Positions 45,017-53,630 of a stretch of DNA of 64,000 nt are shown here, piece after piece. The position numbers and the translations under genes were made by a program. The stretch covers positions 3,100,001 to 3,164,000 of the forward strand of contig NZ_CP095042.1 of NCBI RefSeq assembly GCF_022919715.1. Reading direction: 5' to 3'. The notes beneath the pieces are model-generated. The model saw only the letters and a list, made by a program, of their open reading frames with translations. It did not search any database and had not been told where the DNA came from. The stretch comes from Agromyces sp. H17E-10. GTDB taxonomy: Bacteria; Actinomycetota; Actinomycetes; Actinomycetales; Microbacteriaceae. The first letter of the stretch is position 1. Each line of letters opens with the position of its first letter.

Positions 45017-46813
45017 TCAGGCCTCGGTGATCGCCTGCGGCGCAGCGGCCGACCCTGCGAGGGGCAGCATCACGCGGAAGGTCGCGCCGCCGCCGGGGGT
45101 CTCGACGACGTCGACCGAGCCGTTGTGGGCGGCGACGATCGACGAGACGATCGCGAGGCCGAGGCCCGACCCGCCCGTCTCGCGGGTGCGCGAGGTGTCG
45201 GCGCGCCAGAAGCGCTGGAAGATCTTCTCCCGGATCTGCGGCGGGATGCCCTCGCCGTGGTCGATGACCTCGACCATCGCGCGCTCGGTGGCGGCGTCGA
45301 TGCTCACCCGGATCTCGATGGGGGAGCCGTCGGAGGTGAACCGCATCGCGTTGCCCATGAGGTTCGTGATGACCTGGCGGATCTTGTTCTCCTCGGCCAG
45401 CACGACCGCGCGCTGCACCGGTGCCGGGTCGCCCGAGCCGATCGGCACCGGCATGGTGGGTGCGGGACCCGTCGCCTCGGAGGCGGCATCGGGAGCACCG
45501 GCGGCATCGAGCTGCCGGCGCCGTTGCGCCTCGCGGCTCGCCGAACGCGCCGACGTGCGACGCGGGGCCGGCGCCAGCCGGCGACCGCGGAGCCTCGCGA
45601 GGGTCGCTCCCGCGAAGGCGATCGCACCGGTCGACCGCATCGGTGCGGACTCGAGGTCGACCGCGAGCTCCACCGGCTCCGTGGCATCCGCATCGGTGCC
45701 GGCCTCGGGGGCGATGACGGTCACGGTGCGGTCGGGGTGTGCCGCCATCGTGTCGAGCGCCGCGTCGCGGGCGAGCGGCACGAGGTCGACCTCGGCGAGC
45801 TCGAGGGGCTTCGCCTCGTCGAGGCGGGCGAGGGCGAGGAGGTCCTCGACGAGGCCGCCCATGCGGATGGCCTCCTTCTCGATGCGCTCCATCGCCTGGC
45901 CGACCTCCTCGGGCGTCTGCAGCGCGCCCATGCGGTAGAGCTCGGCGTAGCCGCGCACGGAGACGAGGGGGGTGCGCAGCTCGTGCGAGGCGTCGCCGAC
46001 GAATCGACGCATCTGGTCGATCGTGCGGGCCCGGTCGCGGAAGGCGCGGTCGATGCGGTTGAGCATCGTGTTGAGCGAGCGGTTGAGCCGGCCGACCTCG
46101 GTGTTCGGCGTCGCGCCGCCGAGTCGCTGGCTGAAGTCGCCGTCGGCGATCGCGGCCGCGGTGCGCTCGGCCTCGCGCAGCGGCGCGAACGTGCTCGTGA
46201 CGAGCATGCGCGTGAGCAGGGCCCCGACGAGCACGACGCCGAGCCCGAAGCCGAAGAAGATCGTGAGGTAGACGGCGAGCAGGCGCTCGGTGTCCTTCGA
46301 CGAGATCGCGATCACGATCGGCACGAGGGTGCCGTGCGAGTCGGCCGTCATGAGCGTCGCAACCCCGCGGAACGTCGGGTCGGCGTTCGCGTCGTCGAGC
46401 GCGAAGGTCTCGTAGTGGCCGTTGTTGCGCGCGTTCACGTACGCCTGGGTGAGCGTCTTCGGGATCACGGGCCAGTCGGCCTTTGGGCGATCCTCCCAGT
46501 TGCTGCGCAGATACTGCCCGCTCGACGTGTAGATGGCCACGAACACGTCGTCGCTCGCGCTGAAGTCGAGCTGGTTCAGGTTCGTCTGCGCGCGCGGCTT
46601 GTCGTTGTCGATCTGGAAGTACTTCTCGAGGCTCTCGCCCGACGCGATCGACTGGAGCTTCGACTCCATCTGGTCCTCGACGTACGAGCGCAGCATCGCG
46701 GCCGTGCCGATGCCCGAGACGAGGAGTCCGAGGGTCAGCATCAGCACCGTCACACCGGTGATCTTGGTGCGCAGCGAGATGCGGTTCCACCGCTCGAACA
46801 TCGTCTGGTTCAT
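45017..46813 (-). CDS. Membrane sensor histidine kinase with a ~100-residue insert
   Basis: 598 residues: membrane helix 1 (about 18-40), extracytoplasmic sensor (41-175), helix 2 (about 178-203), HAMP (204-258), H-box FVGDASHELRTPL (His277), then N-box ITNLMGNAMRFTSDG (around 488), DHGEGIPPQ and GGSGLGLAIVSS. Between the dimerisation helices and the N-box residues 371-470 are a low-complexity Ala/Pro/Arg stretch with a basic run near 408-433, longer than usual. It pairs with the response regulator 31 bases upstream in the same operon. The signal is unknown; the overall type is like PhoR/TrcS/MprB kinases. Confidence 0.9.
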   Translation of the reverse strand: MNQTMFERWNRISLRTKITGVTVLMLTLGLLVSGIGTAAMLRSYVEDQMESKLQSIASGESLEKYFQIDNDKPRAQTNLNQLDFSASDDVFVAIYTSSGQYLRSNWEDRPKADWPVIPKTLTQAYVNARNNGHYETFALDDANADPTFRGVATLMTADSHGTLVPIVIAISSKDTERLLAVYLTIFFGFGLGVVLVGALLTRMLVTSTFAPLREAERTAAAIADGDFSQRLGGATPNTEVGRLNRSLNTMLNRIDRAFRDRARTIDQMRRFVGDASHELRTPLVSVRGYAELYRMGALQTPEEVGQAMERIEKEAIRMGGLVEDLLALARLDEAKPLELAEVDLVPLARDAALDTMAAHPDRTVTVIAPEAGTDADATEPVELAVDLESAPMRSTGAIAFAGATLARLRGRRLAPAPRRTSARSASREAQRRRQLDAAGAPDAASEATGPAPTMPVPIGSGDPAPVQRAVVLAEENKIRQVITNLMGNAMRFTSDGSPIEIRVSIDAATERAMVEVIDHGEGIPPQIREKIFQRFWRADTSRTRETGGSGLGLAIVSSIVAAHNGSVDVVETPGGGATFRVMLPLAGSAAAPQAITEA

Positions 46814-46844
46814 GGCTGGCCGAGTCTAGGCGGCGGAACCTGAG

Positions 46845-47540
46845 TCAGGGCTTGGAGGAGGACTTGAGCATGTACCCGAACCCCCGCTTGGTCTGGATGA
46901 GCGGCTCGGAGGAGTGCTGGTCGAGCTTGCGGCGCAGGTACGAGATGTAGCTCTCGACGATGCCGGCGTCGCCGTTGAAGTCGTACTCCCACACGTGGTC
47001 GAGGATCTGGGCCTTCGACAGCACGCGGTTCGGGTTGAGCATGAGGTAGCGCAGCAGCTTGAACTCGGTGGGGGAGAGCTCGACCGGCACGTCGCCGACG
47101 AGCACCTCGTGGGTGTCCTGGTCCATCGTGAGCTCGCCGGTGCGGATCACCGCGTCCTCCTCGGCGTGCATGGTGCGGCGCAGGATCGCCTTGATGCGCG
47201 CGACGATCTCGTCGAGGGAGAAGGGCTTCGTGACGTAGTCGTCGCCACCGACGGTGAGGCCCGTGATCTTGTCCTCGGTGTCGTCCTTCGCGGTGAGGAA
47301 GAGGATCGGCGCGGTGTACCCGGCCGAGCGCAGGCGCTTGGTCACGCCGAAGCCGTTCATGTCGGGCAGCATGACGTCGAGGATGATGAGGTCGGGCTCC
47401 TCCTCGAGCACGGCCGAGATGGTCTGCGCGCCGTTGCCCACGGCGCGTACCGCGAATCCCGCGAACCGGAGGCTCGTGGTCAGGAGGTCGCGGATGTTGG
47501 GCTCGTCGTCGACGATGAGAATGCGAGGTCCGTCGCTCAT
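46845..47540 (-). CDS. OmpR-family response regulator (mycobacterial PhoP/TrcR-like)
   Basis: 231 residues. Receiver with VDDEP, phospho-acceptor Asp in LIILDVMLPDMNGFG, and GGDDYVTKPFSLDEIVARI; winged helix with SPTEFKLLRYLMLNPNRVLSK and ESYISYLRRKLDQ. GFGV...LFLTAKD...DKITGLTVGGDDYVTKPFSL resembles M. tuberculosis PhoP, which is unrelated to phosphate control despite its name. First gene of the two-component operon; start at 47540. Confidence 0.93.
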   Translation of the reverse strand: MSDGPRILIVDDEPNIRDLLTTSLRFAGFAVRAVGNGAQTISAVLEEEPDLIILDVMLPDMNGFGVTKRLRSAGYTAPILFLTAKDDTEDKITGLTVGGDDYVTKPFSLDEIVARIKAILRRTMHAEEDAVIRTGELTMDQDTHEVLVGDVPVELSPTEFKLLRYLMLNPNRVLSKAQILDHVWEYDFNGDAGIVESYISYLRRKLDQHSSEPLIQTKRGFGYMLKSSSKP

Positions 47541-47596: not shown

Positions 47597-48280
47597 TCAG
47601 AGCGGCGTGGCGGCGATGCGGATGCAGCAGGCGCCGGCGCCCGGATCGAGGCGCACCCGACCCGGGTCGGCACCGGTCGAGTCGGCCATGCCGCACACGA
47701 GCGCGTGGTTCAGCTCGCACACGACACCGGGATGCTCGCGCGCCAGCCGATGGAACGGGCAGGTGCCGAGCACGAGGTCGTCATCGTCGCCCGTCGGCTC
47801 GAAACCGGCGTCGTCGAGGGCGTGACCGAGGTCGGGGGATGCCGCGGCGAGACGTCGACCGGCCCGCTCGGCCGCCTCGCGGAGTGCTTCGCGCACGGGC
47901 ACGCCGTCGTCGAGGGCCCGCCCGATCGCCTCGGCCATGACGCCGCCGCCGAGCTCGTACAGCCGGGCGGGGATGCTCACCGCGACCTCGCCCTCGGCGC
48001 GGCGATAGAGCTTCGCCGGCCGCCCCGCCCCCGGGCCGGAGCGCCCCGTGAGTCGTCGCGACTCGGTCGTGAGCAGGCCGGCCTCCACGAGCCGGTCGAG
48101 ATGGAACGCGGCCGTCGAGCGCGGAATGCCGAGCGCCTCGGCGACGTGGTCGCGCCCGACCGCGTCGGGACGGCCCGAGACGACGTGGAAGACGCGGCGG
48201 CGCACGGCGTCGGCGAGCGCCCCGATCGCGCGGATCGAGTCGTCCTCGACCGGGTCTGCGCGCTTCCCGCCGCCTGCCAT
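47597..48280 (-). CDS. ArsR-type (COG2345) regulator with Cys-rich C-terminus
   Basis: 227 residues. The N-terminal winged helix-turn-helix (about 15-75: VRRRVFHVVSG, GIPRSTAAFHLDRLVEAGLLTTE) is followed by a helical domain and a cysteine cluster (Cys174, Cys188, Cys196, Cys218, Cys219: GTCPFHRLAREHPGVVCELN, then GAGACCIRI). COG2345 relatives such as SufR use C-terminal cysteines to hold an Fe-S cluster and sense redox or iron; that role is inferred. TATGAT lies six bases before the ATG, so it is leaderless, and its promoter region abuts that of divergent folE. Confidence 0.85.
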   Translation of the reverse strand: MAGGGKRADPVEDDSIRAIGALADAVRRRVFHVVSGRPDAVGRDHVAEALGIPRSTAAFHLDRLVEAGLLTTESRRLTGRSGPGAGRPAKLYRRAEGEVAVSIPARLYELGGGVMAEAIGRALDDGVPVREALREAAERAGRRLAAASPDLGHALDDAGFEPTGDDDDLVLGTCPFHRLAREHPGVVCELNHALVCGMADSTGADPGRVRLDPGAGACCIRIAATPL

Positions 48281-48302
48281 GCGCCGATCATATCTCTAAA
48301 AC

Positions 48303-48340
48303 CAGAATCTGTTGACAAAAGAATTGCACCGGCCTAGCCT
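48303..48340 (+). promoter_or_regulatory. Promoter of the folE operon with candidate operator
   Basis: TTGACA (48312-48317), 17 bases, TAGCCT (48335-48340): the best housekeeping promoter in the window. CAGA-A-TCTG (48303-48311) is a small inverted repeat touching the -35 and lying between this promoter and the -10 (48287-48292) of the divergent regulator, a natural operator position. Confidence 0.75.
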
Positions 48341-48369
48341 CGGCATCGAGGGGCCGGGAGGAACAACGC

Positions 48370-49035
48370 ATGACGCCGATCGAACCAGCAGGGGCCGTCG
48401 AGGCGCCCGACGCGAACGAACCCGCGGCCGTGCCGCCGAGGCTCCACGCCGTCACCGCCGATGAGGCCGCCAGGGCGATCGACCGCGAGGGCGCCGTCGA
48501 GGCGGTGCGGGCGCTGCTCACCGCCCTCGGGCGCGACGTCGAGAGCGAGCACCTCGCCGACACCCCGCGGCGTGTGGCCGATGCGTACATCGAGCTGCTC
48601 TCGCCGCGCCCGTTCACCCCGACGACGTTCCCCGGCGAGGGCTACGGCGAGCTCGTCGTCGTCCGCGACATCCCGTTCGACTCGCTCTGCGAGCACCACC
48701 TGCTGCCGTTCCGCGGCGTCGCCCACCTCGGCTACGTGCCCGGCGAGCGCATCATCGGGCTCTCGAAGCTCGCGCGCGTCGTCGAGCAGTACGCGCGCGA
48801 CCTGCAGGTGCAGGAGCGGCTGACGCGGCAGATCGCCGACCGGCTCGTCGAGGTGCTCGACCCCGCGGGCGTCGGCGTGGTGCTCGAGGCCGAGCACCTC
48901 TGCATGTCGCTGCGGGGCGTGCAGGCCCCCGGCACCCGAACGGTCACGACGGCGCTCACCGGGAGCGTGCGAGACGACGACCGCACCCGGCGCGAGTTCC
49001 TCGACCGCTGCGGCCCGGGCAGGACGGAGCACTGA
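48370..49035 (+). CDS. folE: GTP cyclohydrolase I
   Basis: 221 residues. Converts GTP to 7,8-dihydroneopterin triphosphate, the entry to pterins. Zinc ligands are intact (Cys107 and His110 in SLCEHHLLPF, Cys178 in EHLCMSLRG), as are GVAHLGYVP and GTRTVTTALTG. A ~25-residue Ala/Pro N-terminal extension precedes the core. GGGAGGAA precedes the ATG. First gene of a four-gene operon; it may be a second folE, since actinobacterial folE usually sits with ftsH/folB/folK, none of which is here. Confidence 0.96.
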   Translation: MTPIEPAGAVEAPDANEPAAVPPRLHAVTADEAARAIDREGAVEAVRALLTALGRDVESEHLADTPRRVADAYIELLSPRPFTPTTFPGEGYGELVVVRDIPFDSLCEHHLLPFRGVAHLGYVPGERIIGLSKLARVVEQYARDLQVQERLTRQIADRLVEVLDPAGVGVVLEAEHLCMSLRGVQAPGTRTVTTALTGSVRDDDRTRREFLDRCGPGRTEH

Positions 49036-49036
49036 C

Positions 49037-50281
49037 ATGGACGACGAACGACTGGTCATCGTCGGCGGGGGCCTCGCCGGCGCCCGTGCGGCGGAAGGGG
49101 CGCGGGAGGCGGGGCACACCGGGCCCATCACGATCGTGGCCGGAGAGGACGCGATGCCGTACATCCGGCCGCCGCTCTCGAAGGAGTACCTCGACGGCTC
49201 GGCGGAGCGCGACGTCGTCGACGTGCACCCCGCCGAGTGGTACGCCGACGAGCGGGTCGAGGTGCTGCGCGGCGTGCGGGCGACCGCACTCGACACGGCA
49301 GGGCGCCGCGTGCGTCTCGCCGACGATCGCACGCTCGACTACGGGCGGCTCCTGCTCGCGACCGGGGCGAGCGCGAGGCGTTGGCGCTCACCCGAGGGCG
49401 ACCTCGACGGTGTGCGGGTGCTGCGCACCTTCCCCGACTCCGAACGGCTGCGCGCGGCGCTGGGCGGCGGCGGGCGCCGCATGGTCGCGATCGGGGCCGG
49501 CTGGATCGGCCTCGAGGCGACCGCCGCGGCTCGCGGCTACGGCGACGACGTGACGGTGATCGCCCCCGAGGCCGTGCCGCTCGCCGCGGCCGTCGGCACC
49601 GCCGTCGGCGAGGTCTTCGCCGAGCTCCACCGGGCGCACGGGGTCGACCTGCGCATGTCGACGGGCGTGGCCGGCATCCGCGGCGCCGAGGGCCGGGTGA
49701 CCGGCGTCGAGCTCGACACGGGCGAGACGGTGCCGGCCGATCTCGTGCTCGTCGGCATCGGTGCGGTACCCGAGACCGGCCTCGCGGAAACGGCCGGGCT
49801 CGAGGTGCGGAACGGCATCGTGACGGATGCCTCCTTCCGCACGAGCGCCGACGACGTGTTCGCCGTGGGCGACGTCGCGAGCGTCTACCATCCCGTGCTC
49901 CAGGCCCACCTGCGCATCGAGCACTGGGCCAACGCCGAGAACGCCGGCCGGGCAGCGGGCCGCGCGATGGCCGGTGACGAGGTGGCGTACGACGAGATCC
50001 CGTACTTCTACACCGACCAGTACGATCTCGGCATGGAGTACTCGGGCTACGGCACCCTCGCCGACGGCGTCGAACCCGTCTTCCGCGGTGACCGGGCCGC
50101 GCGCGAGTTCATCGCGTTCTGGCAGCGCGAGGGGCGCGTCGTCGCGGGCATGAACGTGAACGTCTGGGACGTCAACGACCAGGTGCAGCAGCTCATCCGC
50201 TCGGGCGCCCGCATCGACTCCGGCCGGCTCACCGACCCGGCGGTGCCCCTCGAGCGGCTCGTCGCCGAGGCGACCGCGTGA
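49037..50281 (+). CDS. Ferredoxin/rubredoxin reductase-like FAD-NAD(P) flavoprotein
   Basis: 414 residues of the BphA4/putidaredoxin-reductase class: FAD motif IVGGGLAGARAAEGAR, PYIRPPLSKEYL, NAD site AIGAGWIGLEATAAARG, VFAVGDVAS, and C-terminal reductase domain with IEHWANAENAG and YFYTDQYDLGMEYSG. It passes electrons from NAD(P)H to a small Fe-S protein; no ferredoxin gene is adjacent. One base separates it from folE's stop codon; its own stop overlaps the next GTG start. Confidence 0.92.
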   Translation: MDDERLVIVGGGLAGARAAEGAREAGHTGPITIVAGEDAMPYIRPPLSKEYLDGSAERDVVDVHPAEWYADERVEVLRGVRATALDTAGRRVRLADDRTLDYGRLLLATGASARRWRSPEGDLDGVRVLRTFPDSERLRAALGGGGRRMVAIGAGWIGLEATAAARGYGDDVTVIAPEAVPLAAAVGTAVGEVFAELHRAHGVDLRMSTGVAGIRGAEGRVTGVELDTGETVPADLVLVGIGAVPETGLAETAGLEVRNGIVTDASFRTSADDVFAVGDVASVYHPVLQAHLRIEHWANAENAGRAAGRAMAGDEVAYDEIPYFYTDQYDLGMEYSGYGTLADGVEPVFRGDRAAREFIAFWQREGRVVAGMNVNVWDVNDQVQQLIRSGARIDSGRLTDPAVPLERLVAEATA

Positions 50282-51201
50282 CGGCCGCGCCCGCCGGCTG
50301 GGTCGACCCGCAGCTCGCCCGACCGGTGCGCGTGATCGGAGGGCGCGAGGTCGACTTCCGGCGGGAGGTCGCCGTCATGGCGGTGGTCAACCGCACGCCC
50401 GACTCCTTCTACGATCGCGGGGCGACGTTCGGCCTCGACGCGGCCGTCGAGGCCGGCCGCCGCGCGATCGAGGCCGGCGCGGCGTGGATCGACATCGGCG
50501 GGGCGAAGTTCGGTCCCGGTCCGGCCATCCCGATCGCCGAGGAGATCGACCGCGTGGTGCCGGTCGTCGCCGCGCTCGCCGACGCCGGTGCCGCGCTCTC
50601 GGTCGACACCTTCCACGCCGAGGTCGCGGCCGCCGCGCTCGCCGCGGGCGCCGACGTGATCAACGACACCACCGGCGTGCACGACCCCGCGCTCGCCGAG
50701 GTCGTGGCCGACTCCGAGGCGACGCTCGTCATCACGCACAGTCGCGCCGAGCCGCGCCAGTGGTTCCCGAAGCCGCAGTACGACGACGTCGTCGGCGACA
50801 TCAGCGCCTTCCTCGAACAGCGCGTCGCCCTCGCCGTCTCGCGGGGCGTGCCCGAGGAGCGCATCGTGCTCGACCCGGGCCACGACCTCAACAAGAACAC
50901 GTTGCAGACGCTCGAACTCACTCGCCGGTTCGGCGAGTTCACCCGGCTCGGCTTCCCGCTCGTCGCGGCCGTGTCGAACAAGGACTTCATCGGCGAGAGC
51001 CTCGACCGGCCGCGCGGCGAACGCCTCGCCGGGTCGATCGCCGCCGCCGTGTTCTGCACGATGCAGGGCGCGCGCATCCTGCGCATGCACAACATCGCCG
51101 AGTCCGTGGACGCGGCCCGCATGGTCGAGGCGATCATGGGGTGGCGTGAACCGGCGTACCTCAAGCACAACGTGGTCGACGGACCGAACGAGGAGCCGTG
51201 A
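50278..51201 (+). CDS. FolP2-like dihydropteroate synthase homologue lacking the canonical pABA loop
   Basis: 307-residue TIM-barrel of the pterin-binding family. The N-terminal motif reads VVNRTPDSFYDRGATF (residues 36-51), as in mycobacterial FolP2, not VNVTPDSFSDGG of true FolP; the sulfonamide/pABA loop GGESTRPG is replaced by GGAKFGPG (74-81). Pterin-site features remain (SVDT, INDTTGVHD, LDPGHDLNKN, SNKDFIGE, RMHNI). M. leprae FolP2 lacks dihydropteroate synthase activity, so another pterin substrate is likely. GTG start overlaps the upstream stop (GTGA), as does its own stop with the next gene. Confidence 0.88.
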   Translation: MTAAPAGWVDPQLARPVRVIGGREVDFRREVAVMAVVNRTPDSFYDRGATFGLDAAVEAGRRAIEAGAAWIDIGGAKFGPGPAIPIAEEIDRVVPVVAALADAGAALSVDTFHAEVAAAALAAGADVINDTTGVHDPALAEVVADSEATLVITHSRAEPRQWFPKPQYDDVVGDISAFLEQRVALAVSRGVPEERIVLDPGHDLNKNTLQTLELTRRFGEFTRLGFPLVAAVSNKDFIGESLDRPRGERLAGSIAAAVFCTMQGARILRMHNIAESVDAARMVEAIMGWREPAYLKHNVVDGPNEEP

Positions 51202-51950
51202 GCGCCATGATGATCGGCGACGAGCGATCCGGCCGGACGCCGGGCCCGGGGCGCGAAGCCCTGCTCGCGGCGTACGACATCGCCGATCGACAGGCGCCGC
51301 GCGTGCGCATGAACTTCGTCGCGAGCCTCGACGGCGCGGTCACGATCGACGGCCGCTCGGGCGGGCTCGGCGACGCAGCCGACCGGCTCGCCATGGACGT
51401 CATGCGCACCCTCGCCGACGTGGTGCTCGTCGGGGCCGGCACGGTCCGGGTCGAGGGCTACGGCGGCGTGCAATTGTCGCGCGACGACGTCGCCTGGCGT
51501 CGCGAGCACGGACTCGCCGACCAGCCGCGGCTCGCGGTGGTGTCATCGGCGCTCGAGCTCGAGCCGCAGCATCCCTTCTTCGCCGAGGCGGTCACCCGCC
51601 CCGTCGTGGTGACCCACGCGGCATCCGACGCGGGGCGGCGCTCAGCGCTCGCCGAGGTCGCCGACGTGCTCGTGTGCGGCGAGCGGGCCGCCGACCTGCG
51701 CCTCGCGGTCGACGAGCTCGCGGCTGCTGGGCTGCCGCAGGTGCTCTGCGAGGGCGGCCCGCACCTGTTCGGGTCGCTGCTCGATGCCGACCGGGTCGAC
51801 GAGCTGTGTCTCAGCCTCAGCCCGACGATCGTCGGCGGCGACACCGGGCGCATCGTGCGCGGCGTGCCCGAGCACGATCGCCCGATGCGGCTCGTGCACG
51901 CCATCCCGGCGGGCGACCTGCTGCTGCTGCGGTACGAGCGCGCCCGCTGA
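51198..51950 (+). CDS. RibD C-terminal-type (dihydrofolate-reductase-like) reductase
   Basis: 250 residues, RibD_C fold: VRMNFVASLDGAVTIDGRSGGLG, LADVVLVGAGTVRVEGYGG (NADPH loop), PQVLCEGGPHLFGSLLDADRVDELCLSLSP and GDLLLLRYERAR. The deaminase half of RibD is missing. Relatives reduce riboflavin precursors; mycobacterial Rv2671 can act as a dihydrofolate reductase. In this operon a pterin or dihydrofolate-like substrate is the natural guess. GTG at 51198 overlaps folP2-like stop; ATGs at 51207/51210 are alternatives. Terminator follows. Confidence 0.88.
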   Translation: MSAMMIGDERSGRTPGPGREALLAAYDIADRQAPRVRMNFVASLDGAVTIDGRSGGLGDAADRLAMDVMRTLADVVLVGAGTVRVEGYGGVQLSRDDVAWRREHGLADQPRLAVVSSALELEPQHPFFAEAVTRPVVVTHAASDAGRRSALAEVADVLVCGERAADLRLAVDELAAAGLPQVLCEGGPHLFGSLLDADRVDELCLSLSPTIVGGDTGRIVRGVPEHDRPMRLVHAIPAGDLLLLRYERAR

Positions 51951-51985
51951 GGCCCGTCGCCGGCAGCCGGTGCCCGCGACGGGCC
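51951..51985. terminator. Bidirectional terminator
   Basis: 10-bp perfect outer stem GGCCCGTCGC/GCGACGGGCC with an inner CCGG-CAG-CCGG foldback, between convergent reductase and helicase genes. Confidence 0.8.
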
Positions 51986-51986
51986 G

Positions 51987-53630
51987 TCAGGCCGCCGCGA
52001 GCGCGTGCGCGTCGAGGATCGTGTAGCTGTAGCCCTGCTCGGCGAGGAACCGCTGCCGGTTCTGCGCGAAGTCCTGGTCGACGGTGTCGCGGGCGACGAG
52101 GGTGTAGAAGTTCGCGCTGAGTCCCGACTCCTTCGGTCGGAGGAGCCGGCCGAGGCGTTGCGCCTCCTCCTGGCGGGAGCCGTACGAGCCCGAGACCTGG
52201 ATCGCGACCGTCGCCTCGGGCAGGTCGACCGAGAAGTTCGCGACCTTCGACACCACCAGGACCGGTGTCACCCCGTCGCGGAACTCCTGGAACAGGCGCT
52301 CGCGTTCGTCGACGGGCGTCGAGCCGGTGAGCTGCGGGGCACCGAGGGTCTCGGCGAGCTCGTCGATCTGGTCGAGGTACTGTCCGATCACGAGGATGCG
52401 CTCGCCCGCGTGGCGGGCGACGAGCTCCTTCACGACACCGAGCTTGGCGGGTGCGGTCGCCGCGAGCCGGTAGCGCTCGTCGTCGGCGGATGCCGCGTAC
52501 GCGAGCCGCTCCGACTGGGGGAGGTCGATGCGCACCTCGTAGCAGGCGGCGGGCGAGATGAAGCCCTGCGCCTCGATCTCCTTCCAGGGGGCGTCGAAGC
52601 GCTTCGGCCCGATGAGGCTGAACACGTCGCCCTCGCGGCCGTCCTCGCGCACGAGCGTCGCGGTGAGGCCGAGCCGCCGCCGCGCCTGCAGCTCGGCGGT
52701 GAGCTTGAACACGGGCGCCGGCAGCAGGTGCACCTCGTCGTAGACGACGAGGCCCCAGTCGAGGGCGTCGAGGAGGGACAGGTGCGCGTACTCGCCCTTC
52801 CGCTTCGACGTGAGGATCTGGTAGGTCGCGATCGTGACGGGCTTGACCTCCTTCACCTGACCGGAGTACTCGCCGATCTCGTCGGCGGTGAGGCTCGTGC
52901 GCTTCAGCAGTTCGTCGCGCCACTGCCTCGCGCTCACCGTGTTCGTGACGAGGATGAGCGTCGTCGTCTTCGCCGTCGCCATCGCCCCCGCGCCGACGAG
53001 GGTCTTGCCCGCCCCGCACGGCAGCACGACGACGCCCGAGCCGCCGTCGAAGAAGTTGTCGACGGCGTGCTGCTGGTAGTCGCGCAGGTGCCAGCCGTTC
53101 TCGACGAGGTCGATCTCGTGGGGAGTGCCGGGCGTGTAGCCGGCGAGGTCCTCGGCGGGCCAGCCGAGCTTCACGAGCTCCTGCTTGAGCTGCCCGCGCG
53201 CCCACGCCGCCACGAGGAAGCTGTCGTCGCCCTGCCGTTCGCCGACGAGCGGTGCGATCTTCTTCGCCCCGACCACCTCGGTGAGCACGGCGAGATCGGT
53301 GCTGCGCAGGCGCAGGGCGCCGTCGTCGGTTCGATCGATCACGAGCCGGCCGTAGCGGCCCACGGTCTCGCGCAGGTCGACGGCGACCGTCTGCGGCACC
53401 GGGAACTTCGCGTACCGCTCGAGGGTGCCGAGCATGTCGTCGGCGTCGTGGCCGGCCGCTCTCGCGTTCCAGAGTCCGAGCCGCGTGATGCGGTAGGTGT
53501 GCACGTGCTCGGGTGCGCGTTCGAGCTCGGCGAACACGGCGAGATCGTGCCGCGCGTCCTCCGCGAGGGGGTGCGCGACCTCGAGCAGGACCGTGCGGTC
53601 GCTCTGAACGATGAGGGGGCCGTCCGACAT
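51987..53630 (-). CDS. XPB/ERCC3-type DNA repair helicase
   Basis: 547 residues. Superfamily-2 motifs in order: Q-like LRDYQQHAVDNF, Walker A LPCGAGKTLVG, DEVH box VVYDEVHLLP, LGLTATLVREDGREGDVFSLIGPKR (RED motif typical of XPB), VSKVANFSVDLPEA and QRLGRLLRPK. An N-terminal XPB domain (about 1-180) precedes. A DNA-dependent ATPase/3'-5' helicase found in actinobacteria (Rv0861c-like). Start at 53630; TAGACT lies eight bases upstream, so the leader is very short. Confidence 0.93.
   Translation of the reverse strand: MSDGPLIVQSDRTVLLEVAHPLAEDARHDLAVFAELERAPEHVHTYRITRLGLWNARAAGHDADDMLGTLERYAKFPVPQTVAVDLRETVGRYGRLVIDRTDDGALRLRSTDLAVLTEVVGAKKIAPLVGERQGDDSFLVAAWARGQLKQELVKLGWPAEDLAGYTPGTPHEIDLVENGWHLRDYQQHAVDNFFDGGSGVVVLPCGAGKTLVGAGAMATAKTTTLILVTNTVSARQWRDELLKRTSLTADEIGEYSGQVKEVKPVTIATYQILTSKRKGEYAHLSLLDALDWGLVVYDEVHLLPAPVFKLTAELQARRRLGLTATLVREDGREGDVFSLIGPKRFDAPWKEIEAQGFISPAACYEVRIDLPQSERLAYAASADDERYRLAATAPAKLGVVKELVARHAGERILVIGQYLDQIDELAETLGAPQLTGSTPVDERERLFQEFRDGVTPVLVVSKVANFSVDLPEATVAIQVSGSYGSRQEEAQRLGRLLRPKESGLSANFYTLVARDTVDQDFAQNRQRFLAEQGYSYTILDAHALAAA

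Follow-up and report, generated by a model that had tools for sequence, protein, structure and literature searches.

FolP2 has long been known as a copy of dihydropteroate synthase (DHPS) that does not substitute for DHPS, and the mycobacterial protein Rv2671 is known as a weak dihydrofolate reductase (DHFR) of unclear purpose. The DNA analyzed here, hereafter called the window, is a stretch of 64,000 nucleotides from Agromyces sp. H17E-10 (Microbacteriaceae; contig NZ_CP095042.1, positions 3,100,001 to 3,164,000). It carries an operon in which relatives of both proteins are encoded by adjacent genes, together with a second GTP cyclohydrolase I (FolE2), a flavoprotein, and a divergently transcribed regulator. 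In the consulted sections of the literature, an Escherichia coli folP mutant is complemented by Mycobacterium leprae folP1 and not by folP2, which likely serves another pathway, and this 2007 comparative paper places the folP2 of high-GC Gram-positive bacteria with cell wall genes (PMC1971073). Loss of folP2 from M. tuberculosis H37Ra raised sensitivity to sulfamethoxazole, and the same is cited there for M. smegmatis (PMC7809127). A review describes Rv2671 as a DHFR and not a riboflavin deaminase (PMC12855090); its DHFR activity is greatly reduced relative to that of DfrA, and its overexpression gives resistance to para-aminosalicylic acid (PAS) (PMC4879365). The closest described counterpart of the regulator is Rv1460/SufR, in which the three cysteines of the arrangement C203-x12-C216-x27-C244 are each needed for function (PMC6034842).

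We find that the Agromyces operon is additional to a complete folate pathway, that folP2 and an Rv2671-like reductase gene are its conserved core pair, and that FolP2 combines kept pterin-site with changed para-aminobenzoic acid (pABA)-site residues. Two lineages of FolE occur beside folP2, and the regulator goes with folE2 and a conserved promoter. The likely role of the extra gene set is to make a second cofactor of the folate type or to provide a back-up for the first.

The operon is additional to a complete folate pathway

An earlier reading of this DNA from the letters alone (the sequence-only reading) had described a regulator divergent from a four-gene operon, and all five open reading frames (ORFs) lie where it placed them. 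The junctions are also as it gave them: a 1-base gap between folE2 and the flavoprotein gene, then two 4-base GTGA overlaps, so that folE2 through the RibD_C gene look like one transcript. Each of the five proteins scores above its own Pfam cut-off. The features are as follows.

47597..48280, minus strand: regulator, an ArsR-type winged helix-turn-helix (HTH) protein with a C-terminal domain bearing invariant C174, C188, and C218 (Pfam HTH_20, alignment, structure model)
48296..48340, plus strand: conserved divergent promoter/operator (CTAAAA at 48296, TTGACAAAAGAAT at 48312, TAGCCT at 48335)
48370..49035, plus strand: folE2, second GTP cyclohydrolase I (Pfam GTP_cyclohydroI, TIGR00063, residues, tree)
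49037..50281, plus strand: NAD(P)H-ferredoxin-reductase-like flavin adenine dinucleotide (FAD) protein (Pfam Pyr_redox_2 and Reductase_C)
50278..51201, plus strand: folP2, DHPS paralogue with the pterin site kept and the pABA site altered (Pfam Pterin_bind, TIGR01496, 2vp8)
51198..51950, plus strand: RibD_C reductase (Pfam RibD_C; best solved relative M. tuberculosis Rv2671)
51947..51991, no strand: strong hairpin between the convergent ends of the RibD_C gene and an XPB-like helicase gene (fold −36.6 kcal/mol)

The genome is a single contig of 4.25 Mb in which two folE genes are present and Pterin_bind matches at three sites, namely, the operon folP2, a canonical folP, and a 1262-codon frame that we take to be a MetH-type protein. 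A separate and complete ftsH-folE-folP-folB-folK cluster, read from ORFs, lies at about 2848326-2852678, and a DHFR gene lies at 241654; the operon is therefore an addition to the normal pathway, and a second folate cluster that the sequence-only reading had suggested looking for does exist. With this second folE and complete cluster, the operon folE is ruled out as serving the sole folate pathway. ORFs and Pfam matches revealed no folB or folK within 47597-51950 (both are in the separate cluster), and the Pfam scan found neither FolX nor the short-chain dehydrogenase/reductase (SDR)-type FolM in the operon. The claim of a pathway outside the folB/folK route is consequently not supported as worded: with FolB and FolK missing from the operon, any pathway running through FolP2 would in all likelihood take its 6-hydroxymethyl-dihydropterin diphosphate from the housekeeping pathway.

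folP2 and an Rv2671-like reductase gene form the conserved core

The neighborhoods of folP2 were compared in 80 named loci, in which some genomes are entered twice, and in 180 distinct loci, from which duplicate folP2 sequences and the window were removed and which derive from similarity-ranked and sampled sets, not from a random draw. Loci were taken for 40 of the 56 other folP2 loci of Agromyces, for 51 of the 53 matches in the family (the other two, the window and genome G023, had been collected before), and for 20 of the 22 matches from the order beyond the family. Gene-caller clustering missed folP2 in 29 loci, and none of its counts is used here.

A RibD_C gene lies 3′ of folP2 on the same strand in 50 of the 51 Microbacteriaceae neighborhoods, which hold the flavoprotein reductase in 20 cases, a folE2-type gene in 12, and the regulator in 11. 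Elsewhere in the order, RibD_C follows folP2 in 12 of 20 loci, and two loci, one of them from Occultella kanbiaonis (Ruaniaceae), have all five genes. Among the 180 distinct loci, folP2 and RibD_C lie within 5 kb of each other in 157, with the flavoprotein present in 76, the regulator in 29, folE2 in 28, and the regulator and folE2 together in 27. Of the 80 named loci, 69 have the two genes no more than 5 kb apart, with a shared strand in 65 and opposite strands in 4, and RibD_C precedes folP2 in two (L075 and L076). The conserved core is folP2 plus RibD_C; the regulator and folE2 are a linked add-on, and the flavoprotein gene is a separate one. The full five-gene set does recur in Agromyces, Microbacterium, Leifsonia, Arthrobacter, Paenarthrobacter, and Occultella, that is, in three families (Microbacteriaceae, Micrococcaceae, and Ruaniaceae), and Homoserinimonas has the set minus the flavoprotein. 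The expected conservation in relatives was thus borne out, as was the co-occurrence of the five families, but only the core pair is conserved as a unit, and one indivisible block of five genes is ruled out by the family neighborhoods. The folP2-RibD_C adjacency and the ratios of nonsynonymous to synonymous substitution (dN/dS) of the five genes against three relatives (0.08 to 0.48) indicate that the grouping first noticed is more than chance.

FolP2-level matches occur in 57 of 60 Agromyces genomes and, at an E value cut-off of 1e-70, in 53 of 100 Microbacteriaceae genomes; the closest named matches are from Agromyces. Outside the order, phylum-wide matches to the FolP2 query were mostly FolP1-like at the cut-off used (mostly 34-47% identity). 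Within Agromyces, FolP2 falls into two identity classes, 81-100% (12 genomes, including the window) and 64-70% (45 genomes). Identities between 70% and 81% do not occur, which would fit the exchange of one version of the locus. In locus L186, folP2 is in two pieces, by frameshift or sequencing error, and all other genes are present.

The RibD_C protein is far above the Pfam gathering score (104.7 bits, cut-off 24.1), and its best solved relative is mycobacterial Rv2671 (4xrb, 1.2e-40). Because it lies below the NCBIfam PRK14059 equivalog cut-offs, in one case only just (183.6 versus 184, 187.5 versus 226, and 163.7 versus 274), we call it Rv2671-like and not a member. The flavoprotein carries both Pyr_redox_2 and Reductase_C, the domain pair of dioxygenase-type ferredoxin reductases, and scores below the named equivalogs AndAa (289.4 versus 650) and HcaD (280.1 versus 450).

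FolP2 keeps pterin-site residues and has changed acceptor-site residues

FolP2 exceeds the cut-off of the DHPS model TIGR01496 (259.7 bits versus 162.6), and its best solved relative is DHPS 2 of M. tuberculosis (2vp8), with true DHPS next. The equivalents of E. coli N22, D56, N115, D185, K221, R255, and H257 are invariant in FolP2 (180 of 180 or 179 of 179 loci), and that of D96 is kept in 174 of 180. The residues that we take to line the pABA pocket, on an assignment to pterin or pABA pocket that is our assumption, are changed almost throughout: T62 to F (177/180), F190 to L (177/180), R220 to N (174/179), and S222 to D (178/179), with A, G, or S at the place of R63 in 176 of 180. The window protein accordingly has F78, G79, L204, N234, and D236 at the places of T62, R63, F190, R220, and S222 and so departs from the pABA site at each, whereas the genome's own FolP1 keeps T62, F190, and R220 and has R at the S222 place. 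This pattern fits an enzyme that still has its pterin site but whose acceptor site is altered. Of the five genes, folP2 also shows the lowest dN/dS against all three relatives (0.08, 0.16, and 0.26). DHPS counts, made for the genomes of 22 of the 80 named loci, revealed a second, higher-scoring DHPS besides FolP2 in 21, the 22nd, a metagenome-assembled genome (MAG), having only a partial second match. The genome of locus L076 (G093) has two FolP2-level Pterin_bind matches and one at FolP1 level.

Two lineages of GTP cyclohydrolase I adjoin folP2

FolE2 exceeds the TIGR00063 cut-off (199.1 bits versus 181.6), and the window protein has all ten of the residues that we take to be the zinc and catalytic positions of E. 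coli FolE (C110, H112, H113, S135, K136, R139, Q151, H179, C181, and R185). Nine of these are invariant in 28 operon FolE2 rows, and K136 is present in 26. FolE was counted for 32 of the 80 named loci: exactly two copies were found in all 11 tested genomes with a regulator and folE2 locus, the only FolE found adjoins folP2 in two Frondihabitans genomes and one Glaciihabitans MAG, and the 18 others have one FolE in 16 cases and two in Actinoplanes and Actinoallomurus. A housekeeping-type FolE adjoins folP2 in 3 of the 51 family neighborhoods.

In a tree from which identical sequences and those under 120 residues were left out, the operon FolE2 rows are separate from housekeeping FolE, and the folP2-adjacent FolE of the Frondihabitans-like clade falls within the housekeeping Microbacteriaceae clade (branch 100/100; its five form a 98/95 clade). 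The operon group is not one clean clade, with 3 changes on the tree, some weak basal forks, and some long rows. Two FolE lineages at the same gene pair argue that the substrate of FolP2 would come from the FolE product.

As a separate observation, the housekeeping Microbacteriaceae FolE (2850409-2850960 in this genome, and in loci L002 and L134) carries G at the S135 position in all 12 rows and a residue other than R at the R139 position in 8 of them. In many genomes no FolE other than this form with a changed S135 was found, and the window FolE2 keeps S135 and R139.

The regulator accompanies folE2 and a conserved promoter

The regulator has the five cysteines listed by the sequence-only reading (174, 188, 196, 218, and 219). 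C174, C188, and C218 are invariant in 22 of 22 aligned rows, in which four pairs of rows are one genome twice, and C219 occurs in 21 of these rows and C196 in only 15, so that the importance of all five is rejected. The same three are invariant in 46 of 46 sequences, selected among the 120 matches listed plus the window protein, with C219 nearly so. Their spacing, C-x13-C-x29-C, makes the proposed switching by Fe-S or redox state no more than plausible. The predicted structure (mean pLDDT 88) has an ArsR-like N-terminal half, and Foldseek and VIA-align placed mainly this winged helix, the C-terminal domain being barely covered. The gene is flanked by folE2 and a response regulator gene, with no suf genes.

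The 89-base region between the regulator and folE2 has a GC content of 0.55, versus 0.74 for the operon, and contains in order CTAAAA, 10 bases, TTGACAAAAGAAT, and TAGCCT. These positions stand out from their flanks across 26 regions (identical regions counted once; L180, with its regulator on the far side, excluded; L024, L199, and L203 not in the set). Upstream of folP2, 24 of 29 regulator-bearing distinct loci have the pattern CTAAA[AT]-N9-12-TTGAC, against 1 of 151 without the regulator, and the 4.25-Mb genome has a single exact copy of a stricter form, which suggests that the regulator acts locally. TTGACA and TAGCCT, with a 17-base spacer, amount to a sigma-70-type promoter within the motif; part of the conservation is therefore promoter and not operator, and the promoters of regulator-less loci are not expected to match by descent. 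A looser TTGAC-N2-AAGA occurs in 3 of 141 regulator-less loci (L047, L101, and L178), and the upstream CTAAAA half is missing in loci L093 and L117.

Several loci show variant arrangements. In the same-genus locus L047, with no regulator or folE2 nearby, the flavoprotein gene is closely preceded by the conserved motif, as a deletion would leave it. A DoxX-like membrane protein (a weak Pfam match, below cut-off) lies between regulator and folE2 behind the same motif in L067 (5394-5855) and L074 (6744-7232), and in L180 the regulator homologue is not next to folE2 but 3′ of RibD_C, on the other strand. Next to the operon, 45017-47540 encodes a sensor kinase and a response regulator that are often found beside it in Microbacteriaceae; where a named locus has the response regulator (37 cases), its identity is 86-99.6%. 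At the other end, the hairpin at 51947..51991, which is without a T run, is a possible two-way terminator.

A proposed accessory pterin branch and its alternatives

The reading that we tentatively prefer is that the operon is a regulated accessory pterin branch, converting the pterin intermediate of folate synthesis to a reduced, folate-like pterin whose tail is not pABA. Loss of a metal or Fe-S cluster on C174/C188/C218 would relieve repression at the shared promoter, and FolE2 would then supply more dihydroneopterin triphosphate, which housekeeping FolB and FolK would carry to 6-hydroxymethyl-7,8-dihydropterin diphosphate. FolP2 would couple this compound to a non-pABA acceptor, the RibD_C enzyme would use NADPH to bring the dihydropterin to its tetrahydro form, and the ferredoxin-reductase-like flavoprotein might recycle the oxidized cofactor or give electrons to the cofactor's user. 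The product, the acceptor, and the Fe-S ligation are what we infer. The interpretation in the sequence-only reading is thereby partly supported: its outline holds, but it goes too far on the bypass and on the sensor. A PF00351 search at E values up to 0.001, whose control matched in 1 of 14 genomes and which did not cover nitric oxide synthase, found no biopterin-dependent hydroxylase in the genome, so that a hydroxylase cofactor is less likely, and this candidate was set aside.

A number of observations weigh against this branch. NCBIfam labels FolP2 an ordinary DHPS (by the TIGR01496 score above), no SufR model matched the regulator at E values up to 5 in a library whose content of actinobacterial SufR models was not confirmed, and the promoter pattern is lacking in 5 of the 29 regulator-bearing loci. 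The core pair also has exceptions, with folP2 lacking a nearby RibD_C in 8 of the 20 loci from other families and in 23 of the 180 distinct loci. FolP2 is absent from 47 of 100 Microbacteriaceae genomes at the 1e-70 cut-off and hence not essential to the family, and folE2 is lacking in 39 of the 51 family loci, which makes folE2 and the regulator dispensable. The metabolite, the acceptor substrate, and the consuming enzyme are still hypothetical.

The main rival, somewhat unlikely in our estimate, is back-up folate synthesis or antifolate tolerance, in which FolE2, FolP2, and RibD_C would act as spare GTP cyclohydrolase, DHPS, and DHFR should inhibition or damage affect the housekeeping enzymes. 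The gene set does mirror the series GTP cyclohydrolase I, DHPS, and DHFR, and the weak DHFR activity of Rv2671 and the PAS resistance on its overexpression (consulted text of PMC4879365) agree with it. Its strongest point is the sulfamethoxazole sensitivity of folP2-less mycobacteria (PMC7809127, as far as consulted), which favors a link to folate itself and counts against the accessory branch. FolP2, however, is no stand-in for FolP1: its pABA-site positions are changed almost invariantly, M. leprae folP2 fails where folP1 complements (PMC1971073, in the sections consulted), and a higher-scoring DHPS is also present in 21 of the 22 genomes.

Less probable again is pterin supply only, in which the paralogue FolP2 would bind pterin or control flux without catalysis and the operon would raise reduced pterin or folate pools under redox or metal stress. 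The intact residues of FolE2 next to the S135 change in housekeeping FolE would suit such a role, as would a regulator that tracks folE2 and not folP2, but an idle FolP2 sits poorly with the lowest dN/dS of the five genes, with its retained pterin-site and K221/R255/H257 residues, and with its recurrence without folE2. Finally, a pyrimidine or flavin pathway reductase placed beside folP2 by chance or shared regulation, for which the RibD_C family membership and the near miss at the NCBIfam "pyrimidine reductase family" cut-off speak, is very improbable given an adjacency kept in 50 of 51 family loci and across families, surviving opposite directions (4 of 80 named loci) and swapped order (L075 and L076), and the description of Rv2671 as a DHFR and not a deaminase in the review (consulted part of PMC12855090).

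Returning to the accessory branch, a wider and more doubtful proposal is that many Actinomycetales may make a second folate-like tetrahydropterin with a non-pABA tail through FolP2 and an Rv2671-like reductase, that in some lineages a GTP cyclohydrolase of its own, controlled by an Fe-S-sensing repressor, increases its production, and that FolP2 and Rv2671, orphans in mycobacteria, are what is left there of this pathway. The steady pairing of FolP2 with an Rv2671-like reductase and the two GTP cyclohydrolase lineages tie both to one pterin pathway, whose role becomes testable in soil bacteria. A new pterin cofactor, if real, would be a rare addition to the folate-like carriers, and a back-up folate route, if that holds instead, would help explain the intrinsic antifolate tolerance of actinobacteria.

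Comparison with known systems

The tetrahydromonapterin pathway uses FolX and FolM. The proposed branch resembles it in diverting the FolE product to a reduced pterin (partly after PMC1971073, as consulted) and differs in lacking FolX and the SDR-type FolM and in having a DHPS paralogue instead. With the canonical ftsH-folE-folP-folB-folK cluster the operon shares a GTP cyclohydrolase I and a DHPS-family enzyme, and unlike it has no folB or folK. The regulator shares with SufR/Rv1460 a winged HTH and three C-terminal cysteines at near but not identical spacing (12/27 there in the consulted text, 13/29 here); it is not among suf genes and, by position, would control a pterin operon. Mycobacterial FolP2 (Rv1207, 2vp8) has in common with the operon protein the NRTPDSFYD, altered loop 2, HD-x-x-K, and SNKD stretches, and in both settings a second DHPS stands beside FolP1. 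Its role is unsettled there, whereas here folP2 is paired with an Rv2671-like reductase and sometimes with a GTP cyclohydrolase. Rv2671 (4xrb) is likewise the best solved relative of the operon RibD_C, but in four genomes sampled from one family of the class with large genomes, inferred to be mycobacteria, RibD_C is far from the FolP2-query match or on other contigs. Among the matches listed in a search of titles and abstract openings, with subscription literature mostly outside, no published description of the folP2-RibD_C/Rv2671 pairing appeared: the parts are known, and the arrangement is new.

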